DNA of 24,914 nucleotides from a virus: the IMG/VR virus record IMGVR_UViG_3300021365_000100, positions 1 to 24,914 of that record; one strand, 5' to 3'. The translations under genes and the position numbers were made by a program. Below the pieces are notes generated by a model that saw only the letters and a program-made list of their open reading frames with translations, searched no databases and was not told the origin of the DNA. Positions 525 to 24,914 of this stretch are shown here, piece after piece (position 1 is the first letter of the stretch; every line of letters starts with the position of its first letter).

Positions 525-531
525 ATTAGTC

Positions 532-1361: not shown

Positions 1362-1362
1362 T

Positions 1363-2022
1363 CTAGGCACCTAATTTGTTGTCGTAATCGAGAGTCATAG
1401 CGATTAAGTGTTTAAGTTGAGTACCGACAGGGAGCGGAATAGGTATCATAGACTTGAATGGTTCTACCGTCACGTCAGTTGTGGCCCACACTGACGTTAA
1501 CGCCGCAATTTCCGTAATTAATTTCGGATCGTACAAATCCTCATAGCTACGTAGTTCCGCCGACATATTCCGAAACATTGTTTGCACAAAGGGTAATACG
1601 CCGAAGTCCTCCGCCTGTGACTCCAAACTCGAAACGATGTTCTTACGTCGTCTGGTGTCTGCGCGGTTGGATTGTTGCTTGGTTGCATAAATCTTGGGCT
1701 CGTCATAGACTTTCGGCCCAAGACTTCCGTCACGCCTAGCCCAACGACGGTAAGAAACTCTCTTAACTAGTCTGCCAGTGGGGACATCCCTAACCCACTC
1801 AAAATAAGCTGCCAAGACCAAGGTCTCGAATTCTGAGGTTTCCGGGTTGTAGTCCTTGAAGTATTCTGTCATGCCCAGCTGCCCGCTAGTGATATCTTCC
1901 TTCGGGTGGACTCTTCTGATCTGGACTTTGTAGTTTATGTGGCTGGGGATTGTAGTCCAGTCCTGCGGAGCATCTTGTGGGTTTTTAAGCAGCCCGTAGA
2001 TTATGTATTCTTGATCACTCAT
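1363..2022 (-). CDS. Conserved-looking phage protein of unknown function
   Basis: 219 residues, start ATG 2022 with GAGG eight bases upstream, inside the end of the previous gene. I do not recognise a family. The N-terminal 60 residues describe short beta-like segments and the middle is strongly basic (RLVKRVSYRRWARR, then RADTRRRKN). The last 80 residues look helical, ending in a hydrophobic patch PIPLPVGTQL. There is no signal peptide or clear transmembrane helix. It directly follows a likely virion surface protein, so a structural or assembly role is possible but only inferred from position. Confidence 0.75.
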   Translation of the reverse strand: MSDQEYIIYGLLKNPQDAPQDWTTIPSHINYKVQIRRVHPKEDITSGQLGMTEYFKDYNPETSEFETLVLAAYFEWVRDVPTGRLVKRVSYRRWARRDGSLGPKVYDEPKIYATKQQSNRADTRRRKNIVSSLESQAEDFGVLPFVQTMFRNMSAELRSYEDLYDPKLITEIAALTSVWATTDVTVEPFKSMIPIPLPVGTQLKHLIAMTLDYDNKLGA

Positions 2023-2025
2023 TGC

Positions 2026-3315: not shown

Positions 3316-3317
3316 GA

Positions 3318-3845
3318 TTACACCGCTGCTGGTAGTTCAGTTTCTTCGATCAACACATCAGCATTGTTGTTAGCCGTTGTTGTAATCGCAAACGTACCGA
3401 GATCAACTAAATCGCTTTCCCCAAACTGACGTGATCCCTCGGAATTAATTGTAGCCGTAAAAACATCAGTTCCGCGAGTAATAGTAATAGTCACAGGTGT
3501 GGAACCCTCATTACTGACGACTACTGAGATAAATTGTCCGTTAGGGGTAATTTGAGTAGTAGCATCGGCTGGTAAATCTATAGCACGCCCGTAGGATTGA
3601 GCTCGGATCAAGGAAATTTCCCCCTGAACATCAATAGGTGCGGGGTTGACAATGTTGACGTCCATGGGTCCTGTACCGCCACCACCTGAACTCTGGCCCC
3701 CTGTACCCGCTACCACGTGCGTTTGTGGGTGCCTGACGTACCAAGGTACCGCGGCCAATGCCCGACGAATGGCGGGTGTGTAACCGGACAAAGCCTCTAC
3801 TGGCGCGTCGTTATCATCTACAGGGTTTTTATTAAAATCAGTCAT
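3318..3845 (-). CDS. Probable virion protein with Gly-rich linker and beta domain
   Basis: 175 residues, start ATG 3845 with GAGG eight bases upstream. The N-terminal 45 residues contain a helix (TPAIRRALAAVPWYVRHPQ). A flexible Gly/Ser linker (residues 48-59, GTGGQSSGGGGT) leads to a C-terminal domain of short Thr/Val-rich beta strands. That layout, an N-terminal anchor then a linker then a beta sandwich, is common in head decoration and fibre-attachment proteins. It sits next to the larger beta-rich gene and ends two bases before it, so the two products may act together. No named family is recognised. Confidence 0.75.
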   Translation of the reverse strand: MTDFNKNPVDDNDAPVEALSGYTPAIRRALAAVPWYVRHPQTHVVAGTGGQSSGGGGTGPMDVNIVNPAPIDVQGEISLIRAQSYGRAIDLPADATTQITPNGQFISVVVSNEGSTPVTITITRGTDVFTATINSEGSRQFGESDLVDLGTFAITTTANNNADVLIEETELPAAV

Positions 3846-3858
3846 TTGTTAATCCTCG

Positions 3859-4218
3859 TTAAGCGGCTCGACCGCAGCATGGTGTTTGTGCCTCATCCTT
3901 AGCTTCATAGCGGGATAATTGGCGTTGTAGTTCAGTATCTCTTGCCGTTGCTACTGTGCGACGAACCCGAGCAGTGGAGCGAGCAGCGAGAGATTGCCAA
4001 GCCCTGACCCCCATTTCAACTACTAGATTCAATTCCGGTGTATCGATTTCCACTACGACATACCCTTCGATCTCCGCCGTCTGGTCCAGCACCACCTGAG
4101 TGCGTGTCATAGACTGTACGTCGATACGATCGTTTTTGGAATAAAGAACCGAACCCGAGAACGCTACATCAGATCGGTCGGCCCATTCGCCCTTAATGAC
4201 TCTCACTGGATGTCTCAT
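3859..4218 (-). CDS. Unknown protein directly downstream of TerL
   Basis: 119 residues. The start overlaps the TerL stop as ATGA, so the two are probably translationally coupled. The N-terminal two thirds look beta-rich (QVVLDQTAEIEGYVVVEIDT). A very basic Arg-rich stretch follows (ARSTARVRRTVATARDTELQRQ, quoted only in part as a motif around residues 78-99). The tail contains a Cys pair, TPCCGRAA. I do not recognise the family. A head-completion or DNA-contacting role is conceivable from position and charge, but nothing in the sequence proves it. Confidence 0.7.
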   Translation of the reverse strand: MRHPVRVIKGEWADRSDVAFSGSVLYSKNDRIDVQSMTRTQVVLDQTAEIEGYVVVEIDTPELNLVVEMGVRAWQSLAARSTARVRRTVATARDTELQRQLSRYEAKDEAQTPCCGRAA

Positions 4219-5837
4219 GCTAATCCTCCGAATCCGGCATAACTGTTTGTGGCTTTAACCTTGTGGAATTTGTCGAGCAGCGCAAGCACCGCTGTATCCA
4301 GAAGATCGTCAGACACGTGTGTATCGTTTAAATTAAATGTTTTAAATTCATTACGCAGGGTCAAGGCCCAAGCGCCATCCGTCCATTTGGTCATCCCAGC
4401 TGGTAGGATCAACCGTTTAGATTGTACCCAAGGCAGGACTAACTCGGCACGCTGGAATTTGTTTCGCGCAATAATTTCATTTTTCTCGGTTTTCTTATCA
4501 TACCGATATATAGTGCCTTTAACTAGCTCAATTCGACAAGATATGCCGCGCAGTGGCAATTCACCTTCTAAATAGCTAACTAACGCAGGGCCAATATTGG
4601 CGTACTCCACACGAATTACTGTGAATTTTAGGCTTTGCGTTTCTTTACCTTTGAGCTCTTCGATCCAGTCGGCGACCGCTTTGAACATGTCCATAGGGTT
4701 GGCTTTGATTCTGCAGCCGTCCACTCCATAGAGGTGTTTTGTGTGTCTACGGTCTGATCCCCACGCCGTACAGGCTGTGAAATCGTTGGCGATTCCGCCC
4801 AAATTAGCTGTGTCAATTCTGATAAACCCATTAGATAATAACTCCGGCGGCTCGACATACCAGCCCAGCCATTTTTCGTCAAACAATGAAATAGAAGGAT
4901 CGAGCGGCGATTGCATATATTGGCTAGCAAATGCTACTGCACCAGCTGGCAATTCATCTTCCTCGTCGGTCGTGGAATTTTGGATATTGCGTAAACGTTC
5001 AAGGCCAAATCTCTCTGGCCAAAGTGCGCCTTCTGGAATCTCGTCAATCGGGATAACTGTTGCGTGGCTATATTCCTTGTAATTGGGTGGCACCTCACCG
5101 TTACAAATAGCTGGGAGAGCCAACACGTGCCACTGTTCACCTACGCCGCCCGATAAAAGGTAGTTAGTTGTGTCGTTTTCGTTTAATCGCTGGGCTATAC
5201 ATATAATGGGTGTGTCGTCGTGGCCCAACCGTGATGTCACCGTGTCATTCAACAACTCATTGACGGACTTGCGTACAGTGGCCGACCTAGCGTCCATGGG
5301 CTTCATCATATCGTCTAAGATAATCAGGCCGTCCCAAGGATCGCCATCACGCCCGGCACGGAAACCAGTAACTTCACCCTTTGTACTTACCGCGTGGAAC
5401 TCCCCGCCTACAGTGGTTTCCCAATGCGATTGGCTGTCGGAATCTGCTGCGATTTTCGTGTTAGGGTAGTCCGACTGAAAGTCCTGCGATTTGACCATCC
5501 GACGAATGCGGCGGCTGTTCTTACGTACTAGGCTATCGGAAAACGATAGGTGCATGATGCGGGCGGCGGGATTTGTAGCGAAAATGCGACCCGATAATTG
5601 GATCGTCGTGAATTCAGTCTTACCGTGGCCCGGTGGCATGTTGATAATCAAACGTTTAATCTCGCCTGACATCACCCGATCTAGAGTATCACAAATCAAC
5701 TCATGGAACGGGGCTAAATCGATGTCTTTACCTTCCAATATGCCAAATGAATAAGCCGCCCAAAGATTATGGCGGGTCAAACGTGCTATGGCTTCAGGAT
5801 GGTACGGCCCAAGTGGGGCCTCGACGGCTGCGTTCAT
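4215..5837 (-). CDS. terL: Terminase large subunit (packaging ATPase and nuclease)
   Basis: 540 residues from ATG 5837. A TTG 12 bases upstream is in frame but less likely. The N-terminal ATPase shows Walker A MPPGHGKTE near residues 67-75 and Walker B LIILDD at 171-176. The C-terminal RNase H-like nuclease begins at FIRIDTA near 338-344, with the acidic residues D342 and D352, and a late acidic site HVSDDLLDTA near the end. TerL is the motor that cuts concatemeric DNA and pumps it into the prohead, docking on the portal. It lies three small genes downstream of TerS and about 3.7 kb upstream of the portal gene, which is a wide gap. Confidence 0.95.
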   Translation of the reverse strand: MNAAVEAPLGPYHPEAIARLTRHNLWAAYSFGILEGKDIDLAPFHELICDTLDRVMSGEIKRLIINMPPGHGKTEFTTIQLSGRIFATNPAARIMHLSFSDSLVRKNSRRIRRMVKSQDFQSDYPNTKIAADSDSQSHWETTVGGEFHAVSTKGEVTGFRAGRDGDPWDGLIILDDMMKPMDARSATVRKSVNELLNDTVTSRLGHDDTPIICIAQRLNENDTTNYLLSGGVGEQWHVLALPAICNGEVPPNYKEYSHATVIPIDEIPEGALWPERFGLERLRNIQNSTTDEEDELPAGAVAFASQYMQSPLDPSISLFDEKWLGWYVEPPELLSNGFIRIDTANLGGIANDFTACTAWGSDRRHTKHLYGVDGCRIKANPMDMFKAVADWIEELKGKETQSLKFTVIRVEYANIGPALVSYLEGELPLRGISCRIELVKGTIYRYDKKTEKNEIIARNKFQRAELVLPWVQSKRLILPAGMTKWTDGAWALTLRNEFKTFNLNDTHVSDDLLDTAVLALLDKFHKVKATNSYAGFGGLA

Positions 5838-5839
5838 TC

Positions 5840-5935
5840 TTACTTGCAAATCCTATCTATCCAACCACGGGCCAACCAATCATGATGGATGCGTTTGCCC
5901 TCGGCGAATAGGAAATCACTGAAAATTAAATACAT
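5840..5935 (-). CDS. 31-residue ORF before TerL
   Basis: A short frame starting MYLIFSDFLFAEGKRIHHDW with ATG 5935, overlapping the previous stop as TAATG, and GGGGA about eight bases upstream. It ends two bases before the TerL start. It is supported only by the tight spacing, the ribosome site and the absence of any other gene between its neighbours. The N-terminal ten residues are hydrophobic. It could serve mainly to couple translation into TerL. Confidence 0.5.
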   Translation of the reverse strand: MYLIFSDFLFAEGKRIHHDWLARGWIDRICK

Positions 5936-6057
5936 TATCGTTTCCCCTTTTTCACTATCTTGCGTACGTCTTTCACTTGGTCAATAACGACGCCAACCAA
6001 ACGACCGACGACATAAAGTCCGATAATTCCCGCAAATACTGCAATTAAAAGTCCCAC
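5935..6057 (-). CDS. Small single-helix membrane protein (GTG start)
   Basis: 40 residues, read from a GTG at 6057 that overlaps the previous TAG stop by one base (TAGTG). The product has one hydrophobic segment, LLIAVFAGIIGLYVVGRLVG at about residues 3-22, followed by a basic amphipathic tail (DVRKIVKKGKR). This looks like a membrane-anchored microprotein with a cytoplasmic C-terminus. No upstream ATG exists in this frame, so the GTG start is inferred from the overlap geometry. Confidence 0.5.
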   Translation of the reverse strand: MGLLIAVFAGIIGLYVVGRLVGVVIDQVKDVRKIVKKGKR

Positions 6058-6344
6058 TATTTCACTATCCCGGCTTTCGCCCGTTTGCGGCGTTCCCACC
6101 ACATTTGTAATTTAATAAACCAAACCACCACACGGAAGCGACGACGCCAAGCATGGTAGGTACAAAATAAAAAGGACGCTACCGAAATAGCGCCAAGAGC
6201 GCCAATTAAGGCGCTAAGGAGGGAGAAAAAGGAGGCGATTACCAAGAACCGAATGCTTTGACACATCGGACAAATGTTCTCGCTTTCCAACTTTCTCAAC
6301 ACGTCGTCAAACATGTTTCTCATGAAATCTTTGATCTTACTCAT
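6057..6344 (-). CDS. Membrane protein between TerS and TerL, holin-like size
   Basis: 95 residues. The ATG at 6344 is chosen because it overlaps the end of TerS and gives a compact protein; an upstream in-frame start exists at 6356. A charged N-terminal helix is followed by a CPMC motif (residues 25-28). Then comes a long hydrophobic region (about 32-63, FLVIASFFSLLSALIGALGA) able to form one or two membrane helices, and a highly basic tail (AWRRRF, WWERRKRAK). The size, membrane region and charged tail are compatible with a holin, but no endolysin is adjacent, so that is only a possibility. Confidence 0.7.
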   Translation of the reverse strand: MSKIKDFMRNMFDDVLRKLESENICPMCQSIRFLVIASFFSLLSALIGALGAISVASFLFCTYHAWRRRFRVVVWFIKLQMWWERRKRAKAGIVK

Positions 6345-6834
6345 TATCCGAATCACTCATTACTGTTCGTACGGCTTCTATCAAATCGGCCGGAGCAACA
6401 GTATTCATTGGGGCGTCGTTACCACTGCCGTCGTCTGTCACATGTTTAGTTTTCTCAGCCCATTTCTTGGGTTGGCGATTATTCAACCAATATCGCGCTG
6501 CGGCAACGTCCGGGGCAATTTCCTTAGTGATCGTTTTAGTTTTGATCTGTTTGCGCCCTTCGACCATTTCCGTGGATATATGTTTTTCCGTAACTTCGTA
6601 TCCTACTGCACGTTTGTGGAGACGAGTGCTCACCGCAGTATCGGCTATTAATGCACTACGACGATATGCCATCGCAAAATCAGGATATTTCTTAATCCAC
6701 TGGGCTATGGTCTGCTTTGTTACACCAAAAAATACTGCGGCATCTGCTTGACTAAATCCGCACATAAAGAATTTCTTAGCTTCACCGACAAATGATGGAT
6801 CGTATTTAACAGCTTTTGATTTAGAGTCGGCCAT
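6337..6834 (-). CDS. terS: Terminase small subunit (DNA-recognition, HTH)
   Basis: 165 residues from ATG 6834. A longer frame opening at TTG 6882 overlaps the -10/-35 region and is rejected. Residues 26-47 (GFSQADAAVFFGVTKQTIAQW) form a helix-turn-helix. The family signature continues with AVGYEVTEKH and a terminal APDVAAARYWLNNRQPKKWAEK segment typical of small terminases. TerS binds the packaging site and hands the DNA to TerL. Directly upstream lies a repeat-rich non-coding block, a natural candidate for its binding site. A sigma-70-like promoter (TTGACC-17-TAAAAT) reads into this gene. Confidence 0.9.
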   Translation of the reverse strand: MADSKSKAVKYDPSFVGEAKKFFMCGFSQADAAVFFGVTKQTIAQWIKKYPDFAMAYRRSALIADTAVSTRLHKRAVGYEVTEKHISTEMVEGRKQIKTKTITKEIAPDVAAARYWLNNRQPKKWAEKTKHVTDDGSGNDAPMNTVAPADLIEAVRTVMSDSDNE

Positions 6835-6860
6835 AATTACTTTTCTTTTGGTATGCGCCA

Positions 6861-6889
6861 ATTTTACCACGGGATCGCTCAACGGTCAA
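6861..6889 (-). promoter_or_regulatory. Sigma-70-like promoter for the terminase/late operon
   Basis: On the minus strand, TTGACC (6884-6889) and TAAAAT (6861-6866) are separated by 17 bases. The -10 is preceded by TGG, an extended -10. Transcription would begin near 6854, about 20 bases before the terS ATG. It lacks the tandem-heptamer leader found downstream of the other promoters, so the late operon may be controlled differently. Confidence 0.75.
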
Positions 6890-9721: not shown

Positions 9722-10426
9722 TTACACTCCGATTGCTAATTTACGTTTTTCTAGGTACTCAGCGTCCAATTTAGCTTGTTGTTTCTCAGTACGCCTAGCT
9801 CTCGCCCGGGCGACCCGTTTGGCTTCCTCTGGTGACCGCATATCATTCGCTATTGCTTTTGCCAATAATATATCTTGATCATACTTGTAGATTTTCTGTT
9901 GATCAGTCAATTTAGTTTCACCGCTGGACGAATTTTTGAATAGAGGGTTTACATGGAATTTCAAAACTGGGCGCGTTTGGATCAAATTAGCGCCATACTT
10001 AAAGGCTTGAGTCACCATTTTCGAGTGATCTTTCATGTGGTCGCCTCCCCAAATCTCCATTAAAGTGGCGTCACCCCATTCAGCGTGATTAAAAGTACCT
10101 ACGGCGCGACGATAATCTCTTAAATCTGAATCACCATAAGTCTCGTCACGAACTGAAAACGCTTTGCCTTGGAAGCAAGTAGTGTGGTTCCTTGCGTCGA
10201 AAGTCTTGACGGCGACCCTTACTTTGCCGGACTCATCCAGAGGTTTTTTAGGGTAATTTCTATATATCTCCAATTCAGCATAGAGCATTTTTAATAGCAA
10301 GGGTCGCATTGAATCTAACTTTGGCATTAGCATGGATTCAACTAGGCTGGTTTGTGGCAAAATTTGTTCAATTTTCGCCTCTCTTGCTTTTCCCTCCGGG
10401 GAATTGTCTACATATTTAATATACAT
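9722..10426 (-). CDS. Unknown 234-residue protein with basic helical tail
   Basis: A globular-looking region (residues 1-165) contains HTTCFQGKAFSVRDE and FNHAEWGDATLMEIWGGDH. A strongly charged, Arg/Lys/Ala-rich tail follows (ARARARRTEKQQAKLDAEY) and probably forms a coiled coil or binds nucleic acid. The start overlaps the stop of the alarmone-hydrolase-like gene as TAATG, with GGAGGAG upstream, so the two are likely co-translated. I do not recognise the family. Confidence 0.7.
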   Translation of the reverse strand: MYIKYVDNSPEGKAREAKIEQILPQTSLVESMLMPKLDSMRPLLLKMLYAELEIYRNYPKKPLDESGKVRVAVKTFDARNHTTCFQGKAFSVRDETYGDSDLRDYRRAVGTFNHAEWGDATLMEIWGGDHMKDHSKMVTQAFKYGANLIQTRPVLKFHVNPLFKNSSSGETKLTDQQKIYKYDQDILLAKAIANDMRSPEEAKRVARARARRTEKQQAKLDAEYLEKRKLAIGV

Positions 10427-10950
10427 TATTTTTCTCCTCCGCCGAAGTACGCATCGACTAATGTTGTGGCGCGAGCCAACAGAAATTGATCACCGGATCG
10501 CAGGGCTGGTAATAACAAACGTTTCTCGGCCATGTAGACTTTAGCGAATTCCGGGTCATTCATGACGATGCTTGCTGTATTATCGATTAAGTCCGCGAGT
10601 TTAATCGTTTGTGCCTCGGGGCTGGCTAGCGCAGTATGCGCACGGTCTATCGCCTTTCTGGCCGCCCGGTTGCCGTCCTCGGGGCGCGAGACATCCGTCA
10701 ACATTTCGACAAGCACAGCGACCTCCGCACCAAACCGTTGGGCTATCTCGCCGAGTTCCACGGGTGTATCCTCGACCACATCATGTAACCAAGCTGCCGC
10801 TACCATTTCCGGCGTATGGTCCACCGATCGCACTATGGCCGCTACTGCCGCCGGATGTACAATGTAAGGGTCGTTTGTGTATTTACGCCGTTGGTCGATA
10901 GCTCCGTGGTGCTTGTGGGCAAACTGTTTGGCTCTTTTAATTAAACTCAT
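10426..10950 (-). CDS. MESH1/SpoT-like HD-domain (p)ppGpp hydrolase
   Basis: 174 residues from ATG 10950. The open frame extends upstream but overlaps two small genes and starts badly there. The metal-binding HD set is complete: HKHHG near 12-16, VHP at 31-33, WLHDVVEDT at 54-62 with the His-Asp pair at 56-57 and the ED pair at 60-61, and LADLIDN at 118-124 with D120. This is the arrangement of the hydrolase half of RelA/SpoT and of stand-alone MESH1 enzymes, which remove the 3' pyrophosphate from (p)ppGpp. No synthetase domain is present. In a phage it would blunt the stringent response. Substrate is inferred from the family. Confidence 0.85.
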   Translation of the reverse strand: MSLIKRAKQFAHKHHGAIDQRRKYTNDPYIVHPAAVAAIVRSVDHTPEMVAAAWLHDVVEDTPVELGEIAQRFGAEVAVLVEMLTDVSRPEDGNRAARKAIDRAHTALASPEAQTIKLADLIDNTASIVMNDPEFAKVYMAEKRLLLPALRSGDQFLLARATTLVDAYFGGGEK

Positions 10951-11036
10951 CTTGATGCCTCCAACTGGTCGACGTAATAATTCAGGTACAAGAGGCCACA
11001 CATGATGGATACAATGATTGGTATGATTACTAACAT
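10947..11036 (-). CDS. 29-residue membrane microprotein
   Basis: Begins MLVIIPIIVSIMCGLLYLNY at ATG 11036 and is essentially a single hydrophobic helix with a short polar tail (YVDQLEASR). GGGAGC precedes the ATG and the stop overlaps the next start as ATGA. Very short, so supported mainly by spacing and by the pattern of similar microproteins elsewhere in the operon. Confidence 0.5.
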   Translation of the reverse strand: MLVIIPIIVSIMCGLLYLNYYVDQLEASR

Positions 11037-11038
11037 TT

Positions 11039-11188
11039 TTAGCTCCCGCGCATAGCGCGCTTGTAACATTTTGGACACAATTTACCATGTGCCCGCTTGG
11101 GTTGTAGACTGCGGGGCTTGCCACATTTCTTGCAATGGTTCGCGCCCCGGATGACTAATTCCTCGACTCTATCAGCTATTTGGCACAT
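11039..11188 (-). CDS. 49-residue zinc-ribbon protein
   Basis: From ATG 11188 the product has two CxxC pairs, CKKCGKP at 19-25 and CPKC at 38-41, separated by a basic stretch (RSLQPKRAHGK). The tail is basic (YKRAMRGS). The spacing is that of a classic zinc ribbon. No strong Shine-Dalgarno sequence is visible, so translation probably depends on the gene five bases upstream. Likely binds nucleic acid. Role unknown. Confidence 0.65.
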   Translation of the reverse strand: MCQIADRVEELVIRGANHCKKCGKPRSLQPKRAHGKLCPKCYKRAMRGS

Positions 11189-15031: not shown

Positions 15032-15481
15032 TCAAACTTCCTCTTGGTTATTCGGACGCACGTAGTTTTTACGACGTCTTCGTTGGTTTTGTTTGTGTGT
15101 CACAGCCTCCAAATGGTTGGGGTTACAGCACAACCGATTCTCACAAATGTGGTCTACCTGTTTAGCTGCGGGCAACCACCCGTAAGTCAAAACGTATGCA
15201 ACTCGGTGTGTCGCTGATGTGCTGCCGCAAGCGGTAATTCTCCCATAACCTGCGCCCCGGTGATTTTCTCCTGAATTCGGGCCTTGCCAAATCCAACATT
15301 CATCTACGAACTCAATATTATTGATTATCTTTACAGCCAACTTACACCGATTCTCGGCTAACCACACCATATTAGGTGCACATAACAACTCTAATGCCTC
15401 CCTCTTTCTGGCTAGCATGGGTGCGTTGTAATCCAAGATAGCTTGGGCATGTGATGGCTTAATGTTCTGTTTATTGTTCAT
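15032..15481 (-). CDS. HNH endonuclease (HNH_3/AP2-type, homing-like)
   Basis: 149 residues; start ATG 15481 overlaps the DUF2786 stop as TGATG. The nuclease core is clear: CWIWQGP near 62-68, GYGRITA at 79-85, THRVAYVLTYGWLP at 91-104, VDHICENRLCCNPNHLE at 109-125, then NQRRRRK. The catalytic His pair and the Asn of the HNH fold are all present. Such genes are often free-standing homing endonucleases or packaging-associated nucleases. This one is far from the terminase and embedded among small early genes, which favours a mobile origin. There is no intron or interrupted neighbour here. Confidence 0.9.
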   Translation of the reverse strand: MNNKQNIKPSHAQAILDYNAPMLARKREALELLCAPNMVWLAENRCKLAVKIINNIEFVDECWIWQGPNSGENHRGAGYGRITACGSTSATHRVAYVLTYGWLPAAKQVDHICENRLCCNPNHLEAVTHKQNQRRRRKNYVRPNNQEEV

Positions 15482-16999: not shown

Positions 17000-17169
17000 G
17001 ACAACCTACTGGCCCAAATCGAATATACTGCGATTAAAGCGGCGATGACCATTATATAGACCGACAAGATGAAAACAACTTGCAGGGCTTCATTGGTAAA
17101 TAATCGACGCCTACTGGGCGTTCCAGCTGATCGAGTGGCGCGAGTGATATGTTTGCCTAATCTGGTCAT
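16996..17169 (-). CDS. 57-residue single-helix membrane protein
   Basis: Starts at ATG 17169, overlapping the upstream stop as TAATG, behind a strong GAGGAGGAG site. The N-terminus is very basic (MTRLGKHITRATRSAG then RRR at 20-22). One transmembrane helix follows at about 31-52 (VVFILSVYIMVIAALIAVYS). By the positive-inside rule the N-terminus is cytoplasmic. Too small for a family call. Well supported by the ribosome site and dual overlaps. Confidence 0.75.
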   Translation of the reverse strand: MTRLGKHITRATRSAGTPSRRRLFTNEALQVVFILSVYIMVIAALIAVYSIWASRLS

Positions 17170-17801
17170 TACTCCTCCTCCAACTCGTGACTACCAGTGA
17201 TATTCGCTGCTCCCCGAGCCAGATTACCTAGATTCATGCGTTGCATGCCGGGATTCAAATGTTGATAACGATTGCGCAACGCGGATTCAGACACGGTTAT
17301 TTTGCGTTTACCGCGGCCGATGGATTCAGTCCCGGCCGATAGTAGTATTCGCGCTGTATATATATATACTTCATCTAATGACAAACCGCGAAGCAATTCA
17401 GCTATTGAATCACCCGAATCATATGATGGTCTACCCGATGCAGTCGGGATTTCAGTATAGCTGGTGTATTTTTCGTGTTCAGGACGGATCAACGTTTCGT
17501 CAATTGCCACCTCTTCATCCAAGTCCTCCAAATCATCGGGGTCTAAATCGGATAGGGTAACGGACTCGCTGGAACTAGCGGCGATTTCCGCGGCGATTTC
17601 AGGCTCGGGCCGCACTGCTCGGCGTACCTCAAACTTATATACCTCGGCACGCGGCATCTTGACAGCGCCTTGGCCGTCATTGGGGTCAAATGTAATCGTA
17701 TCTTTATCGAACTCAGTGATCGGGCCGTATACCCACGTGCCGTTACCGATTACATCTGCTTGTACTTTTTGGCCTATTGTGGCTCTTTTAACTCTTTGCA
17801 T
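17169..17801 (-). CDS. Promoter-proximal acidic-linker protein, unknown
   Basis: 210 residues, first gene behind the 17.86 kb promoter. Residues 1-60 look like a small beta barrel (IGQKVQADVIGNGTWVYGPI, then DKDTITFDP). A very acidic linker follows (SDLDPDDLEDLDEEVAIDE). A C-terminal helical, basic domain contains IGRGKRKITVSESALRNRYQ and GMQRMNLGNLARGA. The mix of an acidic linker with a basic domain suits a DNA-associated or host-takeover protein. No family is recognised, and first position behind a consensus promoter implies early expression. Confidence 0.75.
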   Translation of the reverse strand: MQRVKRATIGQKVQADVIGNGTWVYGPITEFDKDTITFDPNDGQGAVKMPRAEVYKFEVRRAVRPEPEIAAEIAASSSESVTLSDLDPDDLEDLDEEVAIDETLIRPEHEKYTSYTEIPTASGRPSYDSGDSIAELLRGLSLDEVYIYTARILLSAGTESIGRGKRKITVSESALRNRYQHLNPGMQRMNLGNLARGAANITGSHELEEE

Positions 17802-17850: not shown

Positions 17851-17879
17851 ATTATACCACAGCCGACGATTTGTGTCAA
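17851..17879 (-). promoter_or_regulatory. Consensus sigma-70 promoter
   Basis: TTGACA (17874-17879) and TATAAT (17851-17856) with a 17-base spacer ending TGTGG. The -35 overlaps the end of the nuclease gene. The transcript would start near 17844 and include the tandem-heptamer element. Confidence 0.9.
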
Positions 17880-18334
17880 CCCCTCTGCAGCAAAATCTCG
17901 TAGAATTCGTCATAGTCTAATTTACAAGACCAATGTCCGTGAGATTTTGCTTTAAGGTCCTTATGCAACGGGATACTATCCAATTCTGCTGCTTGGTCAC
18001 CGCGAACCAAATACCAATCCATTGTATCAGTTTTGATCAATAGCCACGCATTCCCGGCCATGGTTTGCTCGTCAAGTAGAAATTCCCGTTGAGCCCCCGT
18101 GAAATGTTCAAGATCGTAGCTGGTACCGACAGCCCTCGACCTCAGGTATTTAAGTTCTATCCAACCCCGTACTTTTATCGGAGGCTTGAGGTTCGGTTGC
18201 CAACCAATTGTGAATGCTATATCCGACATTCCACGAGCCATACTGCCATTTTCTATTCGACGGAACTTGGCATACTTGAACTGTTCTAATTTCGGACGAA
18301 TTTCTCGCCACATTTCTTGTTCCTTTAAATTCAT
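17876..18334 (-). CDS. VRR-NUC-like PD-(D/E)xK nuclease
   Basis: 152 residues. FRRIENGSMARGMSDIAF (residues 24-41) and GWIELKYL (57-64) give the PD-(D/E)xK core, with D38, E60 and K62 in the usual spacing. FTGAQREFLLD and GNAWLLIKTD fit the later strands and helix. Family members are structure-specific or Holliday-junction-resolving nucleases in phages, linked to recombination or clearing of branched DNA before packaging. Start overlaps the datZ stop as ATGA, so it belongs to the nucleotide/replication operon. Confidence 0.8.
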   Translation of the reverse strand: MNLKEQEMWREIRPKLEQFKYAKFRRIENGSMARGMSDIAFTIGWQPNLKPPIKVRGWIELKYLRSRAVGTSYDLEHFTGAQREFLLDEQTMAGNAWLLIKTDTMDWYLVRGDQAAELDSIPLHKDLKAKSHGHWSCKLDYDEFYEILLQRG

Positions 18335-18936
18335 TTGAAATCTCCGGTAATATGTTCCAGATAGAATGGCTCTTGCTCGAAGCTCTCCACAACGCGGCCG
18401 TAAGCGTAACTAAAAGTGGGGCCGTCGTACTGACTGTCGTGCCGTTCATCTAGTGTAATAATATATTTAGTTAGAGCGGCGTCGATTCTATCAAACACTT
18501 TGCCCGCGTGATCTCCCCGACCATATCTGATCAAGAATTCCCGTGCTTCAATCAAGTCGGCAATTTTAACAATGTGCAACAGCAACTCATCATCATATGG
18601 CCGATCTGTACTAATGTACTCACGATAAATACCTCCCGATTTAGCCTCGATACCTTTTAATTTGCCCGCAGGTATTATCTTCTTTATAGGAGTAGGTAAA
18701 TCGCCCGTTAACACCTCGGGTACGTCATGCATTAAAGCCCAGCGTACGTAACGCAAGATGTCGTGTTTTTGTGTGATTTCCAGATATTTACACAACTCCA
18801 TGGTGATGATAGAAACAAAATACATATGCTCAGCGACATTTTGTTGGCGACTGGTGTCCACAATCTGCCAACGGTTCAGAGTGCCCAACCGATAGATATC
18901 GTTCAGGCTCAAACCCCTTTCATTACTTTTTAACAT
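18331..18936 (-). CDS. datZ: DatZ: HD-domain dATP triphosphohydrolase
   Basis: 201 residues, YfbR-like HD fold. IYRLGTLNRWQIVDTSRQQN leads to NVAEHMYF with H37. ALMHDVPEVLTGDLPTP holds the His-Asp pair H70-D71 and E74, and KIADLIEA holds D127, so the metal site is complete. In aminoadenine phages DatZ specifically removes dATP (to deoxyadenosine and triphosphate), lowering A available to the polymerase. Assignment rests on this fold plus the adjacent mazZ (14-base overlap) and nearby purZ. On its own it could be a general 5'-nucleotidase of the YfbR type, which the context makes less likely. Confidence 0.88.
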   Translation of the reverse strand: MLKSNERGLSLNDIYRLGTLNRWQIVDTSRQQNVAEHMYFVSIITMELCKYLEITQKHDILRYVRWALMHDVPEVLTGDLPTPIKKIIPAGKLKGIEAKSGGIYREYISTDRPYDDELLLHIVKIADLIEAREFLIRYGRGDHAGKVFDRIDAALTKYIITLDERHDSQYDGPTFSYAYGRVVESFEQEPFYLEHITGDFK

Positions 18937-19459
18937 GTCCTAATCTCCCGTTTTTATCAACCGCCCATTCGCGATCTCTGTTAATTTTCATTTTATCCCG
19001 CACAGCAGTTTCAATATCAATCCCGGCCAAATGGGCTACATCCAACAGTAGGATAGCGACATCAGCAAATTCCAACGGGTCCATAAATTCCGACTCCAAT
19101 AATTCAGGGATTTCCTCCTCCACCATTTTATCGAAAGCATGACTAACTTTGCGATCAGGAATAATTTCATCGGCCCAACTGGCTATCTCGGCTTGCAAAG
19201 CCCCCAGTCCGGGGCTCAACAAATCCGCGGCGTTATCAGCCTCCATTTCAAGAAGCACCCAACGATGCTTATTACCGTCGGCTAAGTGTTGGCCGCGAGC
19301 TATAACGTTGTACTGATCGGCCGGAATTTCTATCAAATCGGAGTCGTTGTTGCAAATCCTGACAGTGATAGAATTACCGCGCTCGGATATTAATTTGCAG
19401 TGAATCTCAACTGGATTTTTGAGTTCTCGGGGTTTTTGGTATGTGTAATCAGACATCAT
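18923..19459 (-). CDS. mazZ: MazZ: MazG-like/DUF550 (d)GTP pyrophosphohydrolase
   Basis: 178 residues (or 177 from the second ATG). The catalytic part is LQAEIASWADEIIPDRK at 88-104, the metal-binding EEEIPEL at 114-120, and DPLEFADVAILLLDVAHLAGID at 127-148. This matches the ExxE...ExxD arrangement of all-alpha NTP pyrophosphatases and the DUF550 dATP/dGTP pattern. In aminoadenine phages MazZ converts dGTP to dGMP, the PurZ substrate. About 85 residues precede the catalytic region (VEIHCKLISERGNSITVRI); a beta-like domain of this size is more than the catalytic fold needs. Overlaps datZ by 14 bases. Confidence 0.88.
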   Translation of the reverse strand: MMSDYTYQKPRELKNPVEIHCKLISERGNSITVRICNNDSDLIEIPADQYNVIARGQHLADGNKHRWVLLEMEADNAADLLSPGLGALQAEIASWADEIIPDRKVSHAFDKMVEEEIPELLESEFMDPLEFADVAILLLDVAHLAGIDIETAVRDKMKINRDREWAVDKNGRLGHVKK

Positions 19460-19787
19460 GACCTCTCGATTTAAGTGCTAGATTAGCGTAACCTACGATA
19501 TCGCGCCACGAATCTTCTTGTTTTTCAGGGTCGCCGCAAGCTATGCGGGCGAGTTTGGTGGCTATTAGGTCAAGGGCTTCCTGTTCGCTGTGATTGGCGC
19601 AAGTGTCCATCACATCGTCTCTGTTACTTTTGAACATAACGATTTGTTCTTTGATACCTTGCGCACAGGCCGCTACTTTTTCAAATTCCCCATAAGCGGC
19701 ACCACGATCCTCATCTATTTGATCCAGAATTGTCGGGTTCTGGGCTGATAGGCTTTTAGCCAAAGCCTTTAATTTTTCTTGGCTCAT
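19449..19787 (-). CDS. DUF6378-like protein
   Basis: 112 residues. RGAAYGEFEKVAACAQGIKE (about 28-47), an Ala/Leu-rich helix ending LIATKLARIACGDPEKQEDSWRDIVGYANLAL. The pattern 'Y-G-x-F ... K-x-x-R ... D-x-W-x-D-I-x-G-Y-A' is that of DUF6378, a small phage family often beside nucleotide-metabolism genes. Here it lies directly upstream of mazZ (11-base overlap) inside the Z cassette. Family named from pattern memory. Biochemical role unknown, though its all-helical character is compatible with MazG-type enzymes. Confidence 0.7.
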   Translation of the reverse strand: MSQEKLKALAKSLSAQNPTILDQIDEDRGAAYGEFEKVAACAQGIKEQIVMFKSNRDDVMDTCANHSEQEALDLIATKLARIACGDPEKQEDSWRDIVGYANLALKSRGHDV

Positions 19788-20086
19788 TCTGAATCCTCCG
19801 CTATCGTGTCTATAATCTCATCAAGCTGCTCCTCGAAGCTTCCGAGAAATCGCCCTAAATAGTTGACTTCCTCAAGTTGTGCCCCGCTCAAGAACTGAGT
19901 GAACTTAAAAAGATGTTCGCCGATTTCGGTTTTGTTTTCAGACTCGGCGACGTCCTCAATTAACCCGCCGACACAAATCTCGATGTTCGAAAATTTGATC
20001 TCAAATAAGTCGTTCGCTTCCAACCCCTCCTCAGCCATCTTCTGTTGAAAATCTTCTAAAATACGTAAAATTCTTTCTTTGCTCAT
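19784..20086 (-). CDS. Unknown acidic helical protein in Z cassette
   Basis: 100 residues from ATG 20086, which forms an ATGA overlap with the upstream stop. A longer frame from 20113 has no such signal. MSKERILRILEDFQQKMAEE begins an acidic, Glu- and Asp-rich, mostly helical protein with one conserved-looking Cys (IEICVGGL). It ends DEIIDTIAEDSE. No catalytic motif or membrane helix. Unknown function; may be a small partner of the neighbouring enzymes. Confidence 0.65.
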   Translation of the reverse strand: MSKERILRILEDFQQKMAEEGLEANDLFEIKFSNIEICVGGLIEDVAESENKTEIGEHLFKFTQFLSGAQLEEVNYLGRFLGSFEEQLDEIIDTIAEDSE

Positions 20087-20352
20087 TTTAAATTCTCTCT
20101 TTCTATTAACCATAACGGTACAGCCAGCCTCAGCATGGTCGATACATCGCCATCCGAATGTCTCACCTCGGATTTTTCCACCAATTCAGTGACGGACTTA
20201 GCGATTGACACCTCCTCGCCGTCCGGATTGAGTACCATGTACGCTTTTTTCTTCTCATATACTAATTCAACCATGATTTCATCATCGGACATACTGTCGT
20301 CGTCAGTGAAATCGTAATCGGATTTCCTAAGGTCTATGATACTACCTCCCAT
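20083..20352 (-). CDS. Unknown acidic protein following purZ
   Basis: 89 residues. Its ATG overlaps the purZ stop as TAATG. Residues 12-26 (YDFTDDDSMSDDEIM) are extremely acidic, followed by a beta-like section (VELVYEKKKAYMVLNPDGEEVSI) and a helical C-terminus. Possibly a small regulatory or DNA-mimicking protein. No family recognised. Confidence 0.65.
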   Translation of the reverse strand: MGGSIIDLRKSDYDFTDDDSMSDDEIMVELVYEKKKAYMVLNPDGEEVSIAKSVTELVEKSEVRHSDGDVSTMLRLAVPLWLIERENLK

Positions 20353-21425
20353 TATATTTCCTCCACATCAGTAACTAGAGGGCCTCGACCGACATACCTC
20401 ACATACTCATATTGATTAACAGCATTGATGTCATGAATTAACATTTCGACGTCATGATCTTCCATGTAATTAGCGAAATTCAAGAATATTTCGTCAGGGT
20501 GGATCATATTAAGTGATTCGACCAATTGATCATGGGACCAATTGAAAATACGACGTGGTAATTGTGTGACTGTCGTGAGTTCAGGCTCTTGGCCGATCTC
20601 CTCGAATGTCGTCTCTTCTTGATCCGGGTACCCGGGACCAGAGTACCCGACCATCTTACCATCACTATCGTAACGATTAGCGACTCGAATAGGGTAAGTT
20701 CGCATACTGGCGATGATAGTTGGGTTTATCCAACCGGGTAGGCCGCAATCGACCATTATTTGGCGAGGAGTACACTCACGACTAGTTACAAATGGGTAAA
20801 ACCCTGAATTTATGCCTAAACTATATCCTTGGGCACCCTCGATCAAAATTGATTCTGATCGATTGAATTTTGATATGTACTCGGATTGGTTAACAACCTT
20901 GAAAATATCTGGGAGATCACTACGATCGTTGAAGGACTCCAACATGCGCATTTGTGCGTTGCTTCCGAGAACAGCTGTGCTCCCTACCTGTCGCGCGATT
21001 TTATCCGACAAAGCTGCTCCGACCCCCTTCGACGTGCTGCCGATCCCCAGCATGGTCTCGGACTCTTTTTCGCGATGCTTTGATTCTATAACGGCCGCGT
21101 GTTCATGGATGAAAATACCTTCGAATTGGTGTTCAATGCTCTCGAAAATATCCGCGCATTCTTCCACCTCACGAATTAAATTGTTGATATTAATTAAAGA
21201 GCCCGGGCCGATCATGATGCGTTTTAGTCCGGGACTGACTACGCCGTTGGCCAGCATAGTATGCACGAATTTTCGGCCTTCGCCGTTGATGTAGGTGTGG
21301 CCAGCATTAGCCGCCCATGCTGTTACTACCGTGTCGGGTTTATCACGCTCGGCAATGTATCCTGCTAACAAGCCTTTTCCCGTTGAGCCGAATTGCGCGT
21401 CGCATATTAGTGTTGCTTTAGTCAT
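20352..21425 (-). CDS. purZ: PurZ: dGMP-specific adenylosuccinate synthetase homologue
   Basis: 357 residues, against about 430 for bacterial PurA, which is the usual shortening of phage PurZ. The P-loop reads DAQFGSTGKG (residues 9-18), where PurA has G-x-Q-W-G-D-E-G-K-G. The catalytic Asp13 of PurA is replaced by Ser14, a recognised PurZ hallmark that makes room for a 2-amino purine. NAGHT at 40-44 keeps the catalytic His. Conserved later blocks are IEGAQGYSLGINSGFYPFVTS and YSGPGYPDQEETTFEEIG. PurZ condenses dGMP with aspartate to N6-succino-2-aminodeoxyadenylate, which host PurB cleaves to dZMP. Its ribosome site lies within an overlapping 47-residue ORF. Confidence 0.95.
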   Translation of the reverse strand: MTKATLICDAQFGSTGKGLLAGYIAERDKPDTVVTAWAANAGHTYINGEGRKFVHTMLANGVVSPGLKRIMIGPGSLININNLIREVEECADIFESIEHQFEGIFIHEHAAVIESKHREKESETMLGIGSTSKGVGAALSDKIARQVGSTAVLGSNAQMRMLESFNDRSDLPDIFKVVNQSEYISKFNRSESILIEGAQGYSLGINSGFYPFVTSRECTPRQIMVDCGLPGWINPTIIASMRTYPIRVANRYDSDGKMVGYSGPGYPDQEETTFEEIGQEPELTTVTQLPRRIFNWSHDQLVESLNMIHPDEIFLNFANYMEDHDVEMLIHDINAVNQYEYVRYVGRGPLVTDVEEI

Positions 21426-21561
21426 TGTAGTATCCTCGGTGGTATGCTCTTCTTAAATATTTATCAAATTTCTTATGAAACACGACTTTAGGGTTACCGT
21501 GTATACGATCTTTGCATCCGCGGTCGTAGAACGATCGTTCACGTTGTGCTGGTTTGCTCAT
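21418..21561 (-). CDS. 47-residue basic, aromatic ORF leading purZ
   Basis: Starts at ATG 21561 with AGGAG seven bases upstream and ends 8 bases inside purZ. The product is basic and Tyr/Arg/His-rich (KPAQRERSFYDRGCKDRIHG, tail YLRRAYHRGYYND). It is the first gene behind the 21.6 kb promoter. Because it overlaps the purZ start, its translation probably feeds ribosomes into purZ. It could also bind RNA or DNA. No family recognised. Confidence 0.7.
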   Translation of the reverse strand: MSKPAQRERSFYDRGCKDRIHGNPKVVFHKKFDKYLRRAYHRGYYND

Positions 21562-21576
21562 TTTGTCTCCTATATT

Positions 21577-21593
21577 TTACACTATTTACTATA
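21577..21593 (-). promoter_or_regulatory. Degenerate tandem-heptamer leader element
   Basis: Minus-strand TATAGTAAATAGTGTAA, a weaker version (ATAGTAA then ATAGTGT) of the element at 11.47, 13.11 and 17.81 kb. Here it is 15 bases from the ATG and a normal AGGAG follows, so it is not itself the ribosome site. Confidence 0.5.
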
Positions 21594-21599
21594 GTATTA

Positions 21600-21628
21600 A
21601 TTTTAACACGCAATTTCGTGTTATTCAA
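21600..21628 (-). promoter_or_regulatory. Sigma-70-like promoter of the purZ-mazZ-datZ operon with palindromic operator
   Basis: TTGAAT (21623-21628) and TAAAAT (21600-21605) with a 17-base spacer on the minus strand. The spacer is an almost complete palindrome, TAACACG-AAATTG-CGTGTTA (21604-21623), a likely repressor site that would block the promoter when bound. The -10 is weaker than in the other three promoters. A start near 21593 puts the leader element at the 5' end of the transcript. Confidence 0.6.
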
Positions 21629-21639
21629 TGTGAATTTGC

Positions 21640-21975
21640 TTAGTTGTTCATCAATTCTAATTCGCGCATCGCTGCCTTTAAATCCTCTATATCACTCCAA
21701 ATAGATGTGTTCACAACTGGTTTGAGAGCGACCAAAAAATCATGACCGGGAGTTACATGGTCAAAGAATTCGGCTACGGCTGATTCAAACCTAGATATCT
21801 CAGCGCAGAGATCAGATATGTACTCCTGCTTTCTCTCTGAATCAGCTGTTATTGATGCATTGGGCTCATCTAATATCGTCCGTAATTGATTAGATTCCAA
21901 CGCTGACAAATCTAATATATCGATAACTTCGTTTACGATCTGCTCTCTCGACTGATTTCCTATTAATATTTTCAT
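21640..21975 (-). CDS. Unknown helical protein after the polymerase
   Basis: 111 residues; ATG overlaps the polymerase stop as ATGA. MKILIGNQSREQIVNEVIDI is followed by largely helical, acidic sequence (AMRELELMNN at the end) with one Cys. No catalytic or membrane motif. It is the last gene before the promoter region at 21.6 kb. Function unknown. Confidence 0.65.
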   Translation of the reverse strand: MKILIGNQSREQIVNEVIDILDLSALESNQLRTILDEPNASITADSERKQEYISDLCAEISRFESAVAEFFDHVTPGHDFLVALKPVVNTSIWSDIEDLKAAMRELELMNN

Positions 21976-23804
21976 GTGTATTTACTCGCGATTGTGGCGT
22001 CCCACCAATTATCGGCGGTTTCGGAAAAATCAATCCTGATCGGTACTTTGCAATGTGGGTTGTTTTCGATTACGTGCTTTATATCGTGCAACAGATGAAC
22101 ATCGTCCGGGTGTAAAGACATAGAATACTCATCATGGATGTTGAGCAATAAATTGCTTTGTGTACCAGATAAGATTTCGGATATGGCGATAATGTTCATC
22201 TTATTGGCTTCGGCACTGGTACCCTGATATAATAGCCCCGCCGCCTTTCTGGCCATCCACGATTGCGGGAACCTCAAATGACGCCCCTTTATAGTTTTAA
22301 CGAAACCGCGTTTAACGGCAACATTCTTGGCATCCTTGGTCATCTGTCTGATACCCGGTACTAGCCGATGGTATTCATCAATGATGGCTTGACCTTCGGG
22401 TCCTGCTTTATAGTAATGATGCTCTTTGCCATCGCCGCCCTTAAATACTTCAGTAGTGGAGGGATAACCCATGTTACGGCACAACGTGCCCTCGCCCATG
22501 TTAAAAATCATACCAAGATTCAATTGTTTGGCGTTGACTAGTCCAGTCACCTCATCACGATTTCGCGGTACACCCATGACCTCGGATACTAACGTGTGGA
22601 AATCGGTGTCCGGGTTTTTGGCATACATATCCATGATCTGTTTGTTCTGAATATAGTGCACAAACCAGCGGAATTCATGTTGATCCAAGTCGCCGTAGGA
22701 CCAGCCTTGGCCCTCGTCCGGCAGGAACATTGGACGTACCATTGCGGCGATCTCCCGGTCTCGGTTAGGTATTTGTTGCAGCGCAGGTTGAGTGTATGAC
22801 ATTCGCCCAGTACCCGTGCCACCTTCCTCGCCTTTCACTTGATTAATGTTGGGGTGCACGCGCCCATTATGTGATTTCTCGATTACGTGCTTATCTAAAA
22901 AAGTCCCTGACGCCTTCATGAATTTTCGACATTTCAATATTTCAGCCGCGACCGGATCAGTCATAGCTTGCAATTGTTCAGCGCCTATTGACGGTTTACC
23001 ACCCTCGGTTTCAGGCAGTACAGTGCCGTCGCGGGCAACCCATGCCCCCGTCTTGCTATTTTTCTTGGGTTGGAACAGTTGGTGAATACTGCCACTCGGG
23101 TTGGGATTCACCTCAAAACCTGCGTCCGCGGAAACTTTCTTCTGTATCTGTTCAGCACGTTTTTTCAATAGGTTGCTGGTGCGTTCAGCCAACTCAGTAT
23201 CGACACGAACTCCGCGCCGCTCCATATCAAATATGTGTGGGAACAGTTGGCGTTCGAACTGGGTCACCTGTTCAAGCTTCTGAATTTCTATTGATTTTTC
23301 CTGCCACTCCCACAGACGCCACGCCAACTCAGTATCTCGCATAGCATATTTACCCACCAATTCGGCCGGGGCGCGGTGTAAGTTGCCTATTTGGGCATTA
23401 CGTGTGGCGTGGCCGCCGAACATTTCGGCCAATTCCTCGTAGATATCTAATTTCTCGGCCTTCAGGTATTTGGTAGCTAGAGCATCAAGAGAATAGGAAA
23501 ATAAGTGTTCATCTATTAAATTAGCACGGATCATTGTGCAATCAGCACGCGCTGGGTCAAAAGTAACACCCTTATTCCACAACATATGCATATCAAATTT
23601 TATGTTGTGATTAACAATGAGGGGTAGAGCTCTGATACTGTCGCGTAGCCATTCCAAACATTCTGGGGTGTCCCGGGTGTCCCAGTAATATGATCGATCG
23701 CATGTTGTTATAGCAATACCAAAGATTTCATCTTCGTGCCAACTCAAGCCCGTGGTCTCAACGTCAATCGCTATCTTTTTTAGACCCGTTAAATCAGGAA
23801 ACAT
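21972..23804 (-). CDS. dpoZ: Family A DNA polymerase with 3'-5' exonuclease (DpoZ-type)
   Basis: 610 residues from ATG 23804 (GGAGG just upstream; a TTG five codons earlier is less likely). Exonuclease: AIDVETTG (D14, E16), NHNIKFD (D71), YAMRD (Y153, D157). Polymerase: TGRMSY...LQQIPNRD near 332-349, motif A GDLDQHEFR (D372), motif B VNAKQLNLGMIFNMG (K426, G431), motif C NIHDEYS (H557, D558, E559). All catalytic acids are present. In phages with PurZ, MazZ and DatZ this polymerase is the DpoZ type. Motif B has Leu430 where E. coli Pol I has Phe762, and Leu422 where most have the dNTP-contacting Arg. Overlaps its upstream neighbour by 11 bases. Confidence 0.93.
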   Translation of the reverse strand: MFPDLTGLKKIAIDVETTGLSWHEDEIFGIAITTCDRSYYWDTRDTPECLEWLRDSIRALPLIVNHNIKFDMHMLWNKGVTFDPARADCTMIRANLIDEHLFSYSLDALATKYLKAEKLDIYEELAEMFGGHATRNAQIGNLHRAPAELVGKYAMRDTELAWRLWEWQEKSIEIQKLEQVTQFERQLFPHIFDMERRGVRVDTELAERTSNLLKKRAEQIQKKVSADAGFEVNPNPSGSIHQLFQPKKNSKTGAWVARDGTVLPETEGGKPSIGAEQLQAMTDPVAAEILKCRKFMKASGTFLDKHVIEKSHNGRVHPNINQVKGEEGGTGTGRMSYTQPALQQIPNRDREIAAMVRPMFLPDEGQGWSYGDLDQHEFRWFVHYIQNKQIMDMYAKNPDTDFHTLVSEVMGVPRNRDEVTGLVNAKQLNLGMIFNMGEGTLCRNMGYPSTTEVFKGGDGKEHHYYKAGPEGQAIIDEYHRLVPGIRQMTKDAKNVAVKRGFVKTIKGRHLRFPQSWMARKAAGLLYQGTSAEANKMNIIAISEILSGTQSNLLLNIHDEYSMSLHPDDVHLLHDIKHVIENNPHCKVPIRIDFSETADNWWDATIASKYT

Positions 23805-24048
23805 TTTGGCCTCCGACAATTTTACTATTGGTTAGACGTTTATAGTCTTCGTGATTCATTATCACCATTCTTTCACAATCCTCTTCCTTGACGAAATTGG
23901 TGGTGCCGTCCTGAGTCACAACCCAATAGCAACACATGACTGAATCGTACGTATCGAATGCGATAGTTAGACCGATATATGGGGCATACCACATCATTTT
24001 GTCACCACACTTTTTGATCTTGAGCCAGTTGGTTTTGATACTGCTCAT
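23794..24048 (-). CDS. Small unknown protein between helicase and polymerase
   Basis: 84 residues, start overlapping the helicase stop as ATGA. The sequence has MMWYAPYIGLTIAFDTYDSVMCCYWVVTQDG, a hydrophobic, aromatic, beta-like block (residues 18-48) with a Cys pair, and a charged C-terminal half (KEEDCERMVIMNHEDYKRLTN). No recognised family. It could be a small folded accessory of the replication operon. Confidence 0.65.
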   Translation of the reverse strand: MSSIKTNWLKIKKCGDKMMWYAPYIGLTIAFDTYDSVMCCYWVVTQDGTTNFVKEEDCERMVIMNHEDYKRLTNSKIVGGQNVS

Positions 24049-24914
24049 AGTAGAAACTCTACTGGGTTTTCCCCCATGACAATGTGTAGATTGTGCTTGG
24101 CACGGGTAACACCCACATAAAAAACGCGTCTCTCGTTGTCGGCGTCTTGGCTGTAGCCCTCGGCAGTGAGAGCACCCATGCCATTGATTAAAACGACGTT
24201 ATCTGCCTCTCGACCCTTGGACCCGTGTATGGTGCTTAAGTGAAATTGGGTCGAATTGAACAGGTTTAGGATGGTATCGTCGTGTTGTGTCTCCATAGCC
24301 TCAAAGTACATCTGATATTTGAACCAATGTTGGTTTATTGCATCACGCCAGTTAAGCTTGGCCGCTTGGCCTTCTTTCATCAAGCCAGCCGCACGTTTCG
24401 TGATCAACTTCTCCAGTGCTACCTTGGCCGAGCCCGCTATGTTCTGTCCGATACTTAATCGTTGCCAATTCAATACCGCATTGGCGTATCGATTCTGCAA
24501 TGGTCCGGGTTTACCGTTGTCAACGTGAAAAGGTAAACACTGCTGCATCAAATAGTCTTCAATATCATCACGTAATGAGTGGTTGCGGTAAATCAACAAG
24601 ACTTCCTCATTCATGAAATCTAGTTGATTAGGTACGGTATGCATGCCGCCATGACGGGTGACAGTACCTTCGCGCTCTTGTGGTTGATAAACCTTTTCTA
24701 CACGATCTTGGACTGGTGTGATAATAGCTTCGGCCAGCACGTGCACCGCTCTAGGCACACGATATGATTGGTCCAGAATTACTTGCTTGGAGTCGGTGCG
24801 ATCCACGAATTTAGACATGCCTTGTGGGTCTGCGCCGCCCCAAGCGAAGATCGATTGATCGTCATCACCCGCTTGATAGATTAATTGTACCGACTGACCC
24901 CAGTAATCGATTAC
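24045..24914 (-). CDS. UvrD-like superfamily 1 DNA helicase, C-terminal part (runs off right edge)
   Basis: The frame is open from base 24914, giving 289 residues of the C-terminal part. An internal Met at 24818 is not the start. Motif III is AGDDDQSIFAWGGAD near residues 15-29. Motif IV-like is ILDQSYRVP near 46-54. Motif V is STIHGSKGREADNVVLING near 227-245 and motif VI is VFYVGVTRAKHNLHI near 264-278. These are the UvrD/Rep/PcrA signatures of a 3'-5' translocating ATPase. It would unwind DNA for replication or repair with the adjacent family A polymerase. The Walker A region lies outside the window. Confidence 0.92.
   Translation of the reverse strand, partial: VIDYWGQSVQLIYQAGDDDQSIFAWGGADPQGMSKFVDRTDSKQVILDQSYRVPRAVHVLAEAIITPVQDRVEKVYQPQEREGTVTRHGGMHTVPNQLDFMNEEVLLIYRNHSLRDDIEDYLMQQCLPFHVDNGKPGPLQNRYANAVLNWQRLSIGQNIAGSAKVALEKLITKRAAGLMKEGQAAKLNWRDAINQHWFKYQMYFEAMETQHDDTILNLFNSTQFHLSTIHGSKGREADNVVLINGMGALTAEGYSQDADNERRVFYVGVTRAKHNLHIVMGENPVEFLL

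Follow-up and report, generated by a model that had tools for sequence, protein, structure and literature searches.

The chemistry of the pathway by which phages replace adenine with 2-aminoadenine (Z) has been described (PMC8342488, PMC8065100, PMC8599892, PMC12884076), and papers on Acinetobacter phage SH-Ab 15497 and related phages have reported the gene set and its order (PMC12884076, PMC8342488, PMC8599892). More specifically, DatZ and DUF550 (MazZ), the latter often fused to DUF5664, occur as sets together with PurZ and DpoZ (PMC12884076). In SH-Ab 15497, Klebsiella K21lambda1, Providencia Kokobel2, Pseudomonas PSA28 and Salmonella PMBT28 the order is helicase, DpoZ, a small gene, PurZ, MazZ and DatZ, with MazZ fused behind a DUF5664 domain and a single-strand binding protein encoded between DpoZ and PurZ; gene order is identical in the four sequenced phages examined and recurs in many IMG/VR contigs. 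The Z operons of Vibrio phage phiVC8 and Alteromonas ZP6 instead carry MazZ-2 in place of MazZ-1, a primase between DpoZ and PurZ, and a DUF6378 gene at the operon end. Cyanophage S-2L has a PurZ-MazZ-DatZ triad with MazZ-1, but it possesses PrimPol and no DpoZ, and its DUF6378 gene is located far away from these genes.

The locus described here comes from IMG/VR virus record IMGVR_UViG_3300021365_000100, of which positions 1 to 24,914 were analysed (this whole stretch of 24,914 nucleotides is called the window). DpoZ, PurZ, MazZ-1 and DatZ form one tightly packed operon on the minus strand at 18331-23804, exactly where the original prediction had placed the four genes (Table 1). The window shares its overall gene order with the SH-Ab-type phages, the PurZ, DatZ, DpoZ and DUF6378 genes with phiVC8 and ZP6, and the triad with S-2L; it differs from the SH-Ab type in the N-terminus of MazZ, in a DUF6378 gene before MazZ and in the insertion of orphan frames. 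Overlaps of 1 to 31 bases join most neighbouring cassette genes. Many of the starts come with a ribosome site, and every cassette frame but the 47-aa one is supported by codon usage. The helicase gene is positioned as in SH-Ab 15497 and relatives. The PHROG 2165 gene, whose relatives are annotated as DNA helicase or nuclease, is the usual gene after DatZ and holds the equal position in SH-Ab-like and phiVC8-like phages.

Table 1. Features of the Z cassette and its neighbours, in order of transcription from the helicase end to the PHROG 2165 gene.
Feature	Position in window	Strand	Basis or remark
UvrD/PcrA-like helicase, C-terminal part	24045..24914	-	phrog_1967 DNA helicase, E 3e-45; runs off the window
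84-aa frame	23794..24048	-	codon usage; overlaps both neighbours
DpoZ, family A polymerase with 3'-5' exonuclease, 610 aa	21972..23804	-	NF038380
111-aa orphan	21640..21975	-	at the slot where many relatives have single-strand binding protein
possible 47-aa basic peptide	21418..21561	-	ribosome site, without codon-usage preference; weakest small frame
PurZ, succino-2-amino-deoxyadenylate synthase, 357 aa	20352..21425	-	NF038379, PDB matches, Ser14, tree
89-aa orphan frame	20083..20352	-	codon usage, strong ribosome site, 1-base overlap with PurZ
101-109-aa orphan frame	19784..20113	-	codon usage
DUF6378-family protein, 112 aa	19449..19787	-	PF19905, family HMM; overlaps MazZ by 11 bases
MazZ-1 (d)GTP pyrophosphohydrolase, 84-aa N-terminal extension	18923..19459	-	PF04447, 7ODY, predicted fold
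DatZ, HD-domain dATP triphosphohydrolase, 201 aa	18331..18936	-	phrog_7076, 6ZPA, metal and base-contact residues
152-aa PHROG 2165 protein	17876..18334	-	phrog_2165, E 2e-21

Portal-like, tail-assembly-chaperone-like and large and small terminase genes are found at 3-6882 on the minus strand, and the record is thus a fragment of a tailed phage. An HNH endonuclease is encoded at 15032-15481, and the window contains no tRNA genes. At 17169-17801 on the minus strand lies the gene for a 210-aa protein of phrog_8941, the C-terminal part of which is conserved in 46 of 106 PurZ loci, either before or after the cassette. A search at the DNA level among 50,697 phage records found no near-identical phage.

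The original prediction had acknowledged that the pathway itself was already described, and the survey bears this out with over 100 PurZ loci in addition to the published set and order; the window is a new lineage of a known Z cassette. DatZ is present in 94 of 106 PurZ loci and MazZ-1 in 67 of them, and thus the Z gene set travels together. PurZ-DatZ cassettes were also seen in two loci from genome_contigs (L044 and L047), on contigs assigned to Verrucomicrobia and Ca. Gottesmanbacteria MAGs, which may be phage contigs or prophages; one of the two carries DUF6378 just upstream of PurZ.

PurZ had been recognised by Ser14 in place of the PurA aspartate, and the alignment confirms this substitution: Ser14 aligns with the Asp of E. 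coli PurA, a Ser is also found in phiVC8, S-2L, SH-Ab and K21lambda1, and a Thr occupies the equivalent of S-2L T273. Against the NCBIfam model NF038379 (PurZ) the protein scores 349 bits (cut-off 300), whereas no PurA model exceeds 131 bits, and the best PDB matches are phiVC8 PurZ (6FM1) and S-2L PurZ (7ODX). Clustering with bacterial PurA had been named as the outcome that would speak against the prediction; in a 32-row tree the protein instead falls into a supported group (bootstrap/SH-aLRT 95/88) with SH-Ab 15497, K21lambda1, Kokobel2, PSA28 and two IMG/VR contigs, with E. coli PurA, Acinetobacter PurA and three PurZ0-type sequences outside. Models, residues and tree placement identify it as a phage PurZ, not PurA and not PurZ0. 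The nearest row in a 99-row tree is the IMG/VR contig IMGVR_UViG_3300033149_002311 (L050), at 58-59% identity.

The family A polymerase was likewise correctly named as DpoZ. It scores 792 bits (E 2e-238) against NCBIfam NF038380 (DpoZ_1), for which the cut-off is 500, as compared to 194 bits for the general Pol I model, and phiVC8 DpoZ (7PBK) is its best PDB match (E 6e-148). In the alignment the exonuclease residues D14/E16/D71 and the HD of motif C are kept, and the clade-typical L430, F434 and G523, equivalent to L455/F459/G548 of phiVC8 DpoZ, are present (residue list and clade residues from PMC8599892); judged by these features, the polymerase is a member of the phiVC8-like DpoZ clade. 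Upstream of the DpoZ ATG at 23804 there is also a TTG in frame, at 23819. Identity to the SH-Ab-type phages is 50-52% for DpoZ and about 50% for PurZ.

For MazZ and DatZ, functional residues are listed in PMC8342488 and PMC8065100. MazZ matches PF04447 above the cut-off (E 6e-8) and S-2L MazZ (7ODY) with an E of 4e-19. The EExxE/ExxD motif noted in the original prediction is present, corresponding to metal ligands E35/E38/E50/D53, as are the guanine contacts I56/D60 (S-2L numbering), and the predicted C-terminal domain superposes on 7ODY with an rmsd of 1.7-2.1 and a TM of 0.85-0.89 on the target. Its N-terminal 84 aa yield a beta-rich, low-confidence model (mean about 60) with weak matches to small beta barrels only, and full MazZ as a single-sequence query in an IMG/VR exact-peptide scan gave no match, which reflects the limit of the scan rather than absence. 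DatZ matches PHROG 7076 'dATP triphosphohydrolase' (E 1e-32), with S-2L DatZ (6ZPA) as its best structure match, and the predicted full HD site is there (H34, H66, D67 and D119 in S-2L numbering), along with E70, K81 and the equivalents of S-2L W20 and I22. The HMM comparison proposed for the four proteins ended with DpoZ and PurZ passing curated models and with MazZ and DatZ matching Pfam/PHROG families and S-2L structures; together with the residues, this is far more agreement than chance would give. PF04447 and PHROG matches alone do not fix a substrate, and those given for the latter two enzymes are predicted ones. A second HD-domain hydrolase (PF13328 HD_4, phrog_990 metal-dependent phosphohydrolase) is encoded at 10426-11124 on the minus strand, outside the Z cassette.

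PurZ, DatZ, MazZ and DpoZ descend from the families of PurA, YfbR-like phosphatase, MazG and Pol I, and generic models also match them, so that an ordinary set of these enzymes merely resembling the Z set, in a phage whose DNA has normal adenine, might be considered. The wide lead of the Z models for both PurZ and DpoZ, the Z-type residues S14, F434, L430 and G523 together with the I22 equivalent, and the co-location of the genes make this extremely unlikely. Because gene order is of the SH-Ab 15497 type, at about 50% protein identity, a Z-genome is a clear prediction. By analogy with characterised relatives, MazZ would cleave dGTP to dGMP, PurZ would join dGMP and aspartate to form succino-2-amino-dAMP, host PurB and nucleotide kinases would complete dZTP, DatZ would destroy dATP, and DpoZ would copy the genome with dZTP preferred over dATP, which would put Z into the phage DNA. 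Very probably, then, this is an operon for the complete replacement of adenine by Z, a judgement that concerns the pathway and leaves the role of the DUF6378 gene aside.

The window holds neither a DUF5664 partner nor a gene for single-strand binding protein, the latter sought throughout the window including between DpoZ and PurZ, which might be taken to mean that a once complete Z operon has decayed or replaces adenine only in part. We regard this as very unlikely, since the four core genes retain intact frames and catalytic residues, 42 of 107 PurZ loci have neither DUF5664 nor DUF6378 on the stretch covered, and S-2L, a proven Z phage, also does without DUF5664. A search for a DUF5664 (PF18909) hidden in the window gave no match, while the same search matched 8 of 28 records.

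The original prediction of a complete Z operon located its new part in the extra small genes of the cassette, and this stands for the DUF6378 gene, the rest being orphans. Apart from the 47-aa frame, these small genes look like real coding frames in their codon usage, their overlaps and their ribosome sites; the 101-109-aa frame likely starts at the ATG at 20086, where it overlaps the preceding gene by 4 bases. No relative of the 84-, 111-, 47-, 89- or 109-aa frames was found among the PurZ loci (by tblastn for the 84-aa frame), the 111-, 89- and 109-aa frames had no match in the phage collection, and IMG/VR scans with the 111- and 109-aa frames came back empty. The 111-aa orphan has no similarity to single-strand binding protein.

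The 112-aa protein encoded before MazZ scores 26.5 bits against PF19905, just below the cut-off of 27.1 (E 8e-6), and matches a newly built DUF6378 family HMM, whose seed included the same protein, with an E of 2e-27. DUF6378 recurs in Z phages, among them phiVC8, VP2, ZP6, Vibrio K227, S-2L and many IMG/VR contigs, and in several distinct PurZ groups its gene lies near the Z genes, although in the L003 group and S-2L it is several kb from the Z cluster. Modest novelty attaches to its place in the window, which is where related phages carry DUF5664, whose representative in phage Wayne is a hydrolase of dATP and dGTP (PMC12884076). In the window's clade the MazZ protein usually begins with a DUF5664 domain, a fusion that the window MazZ does not have. 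L050, the contig with the nearest PurZ, resembles the window in an unfused MazZ and in DatZ and a nuclease-like gene downstream, but where the window has DUF6378 it carries a stand-alone 111-aa DUF5664 gene, which has PurZ and MazZ as its immediate neighbours and overlaps the latter. In phiVC8-like Z phages, one slot after DatZ holds DUF5664 or DUF6378, never both (L008 and L087-L094, at +2.1 to +2.4 kb from PurZ; L009, L010, L012-L014, L034, L037, L042, L100 and L112). In five loci (L011, L078, L079, L083 and L091) a stand-alone DUF5664 gene lies between PurZ and DatZ and neither MazZ-1 nor MazZ-2 was detected, as if DUF5664 had replaced MazZ.

Across 107 PurZ loci, many of which are fragments such that absence of either family is uncertain for some, DUF6378 occurs in 26, DUF5664 in 39 and both in none (Fisher p 8e-7, kinship ignored). 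This mutual exclusion, together with the slot shared between the window and L050, suggests a functional replacement. It is possible, if doubtful, that Z phages have in DUF6378 an unrecognised accessory enzyme that trims the dATP/dGTP pool in place of the unrelated DUF5664 hydrolase, and the gene before MazZ in the window may perhaps act on dATP and dGTP as DUF5664 does in relatives. Somewhat probably, DUF6378 is instead a passenger whose position before MazZ, like its exclusion of DUF5664, arose by accident of lineage. Among 50,697 phage records, 202 contain the family, and many of these belong to enteric phages in which no Z cassette is known; in phages with normal DNA it is surrounded by unrelated genes. 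On the PurZ tree each of the two labels switches about 12 times, but an independent-pairs test of the exclusion, with too few pairs available (0 same, about 3 opposite, about 4 without difference), was not significant. Against a passenger stand the absence of any locus with both families, the proximity of DUF6378 to Z genes in separate PurZ groups and its occupation of the DUF5664 slot, both among phiVC8-like phages and when the window is set beside L050.

Comparison of the DUF6378 and DUF5664 profiles gave no significant match. A weak profile match between DUF6378 and MazZ, seen early with 9 sequences (P 0.003), lost strength when the alignments were enlarged (P 0.07) and was dropped. The AlphaFold2 model of DUF6378 (pLDDT 77), examined for a fold shared with all-alpha NTP pyrophosphatases, is a helical bundle for which Foldseek returned no significant PDB match (best E 0.5). 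The best VIA-align hits were to helical proteins of no relation and reached a Z of 7.8, under the noise level given for helical bundles. As a single-sequence query in the IMG/VR exact-peptide scan DUF6378 gave no match, again a limit of the scan and not a sign of absence. Because phylogeny-corrected support is weak and neither homology nor a fold match is detectable, replacement of DUF5664 by DUF6378 is offered only as a hypothesis.

If replacement is true, the use of DUF6378 for DUF5664 would be one more example of the functional convergence that Z phages are described as showing. The survey points to a testable function for a family that occurs in many phages and is annotated only as unknown. 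The window adds a phage lineage with a complete Z set, whose enzymes share only about 50% identity with those characterised so far and are useful new variants of PurZ and DpoZ.
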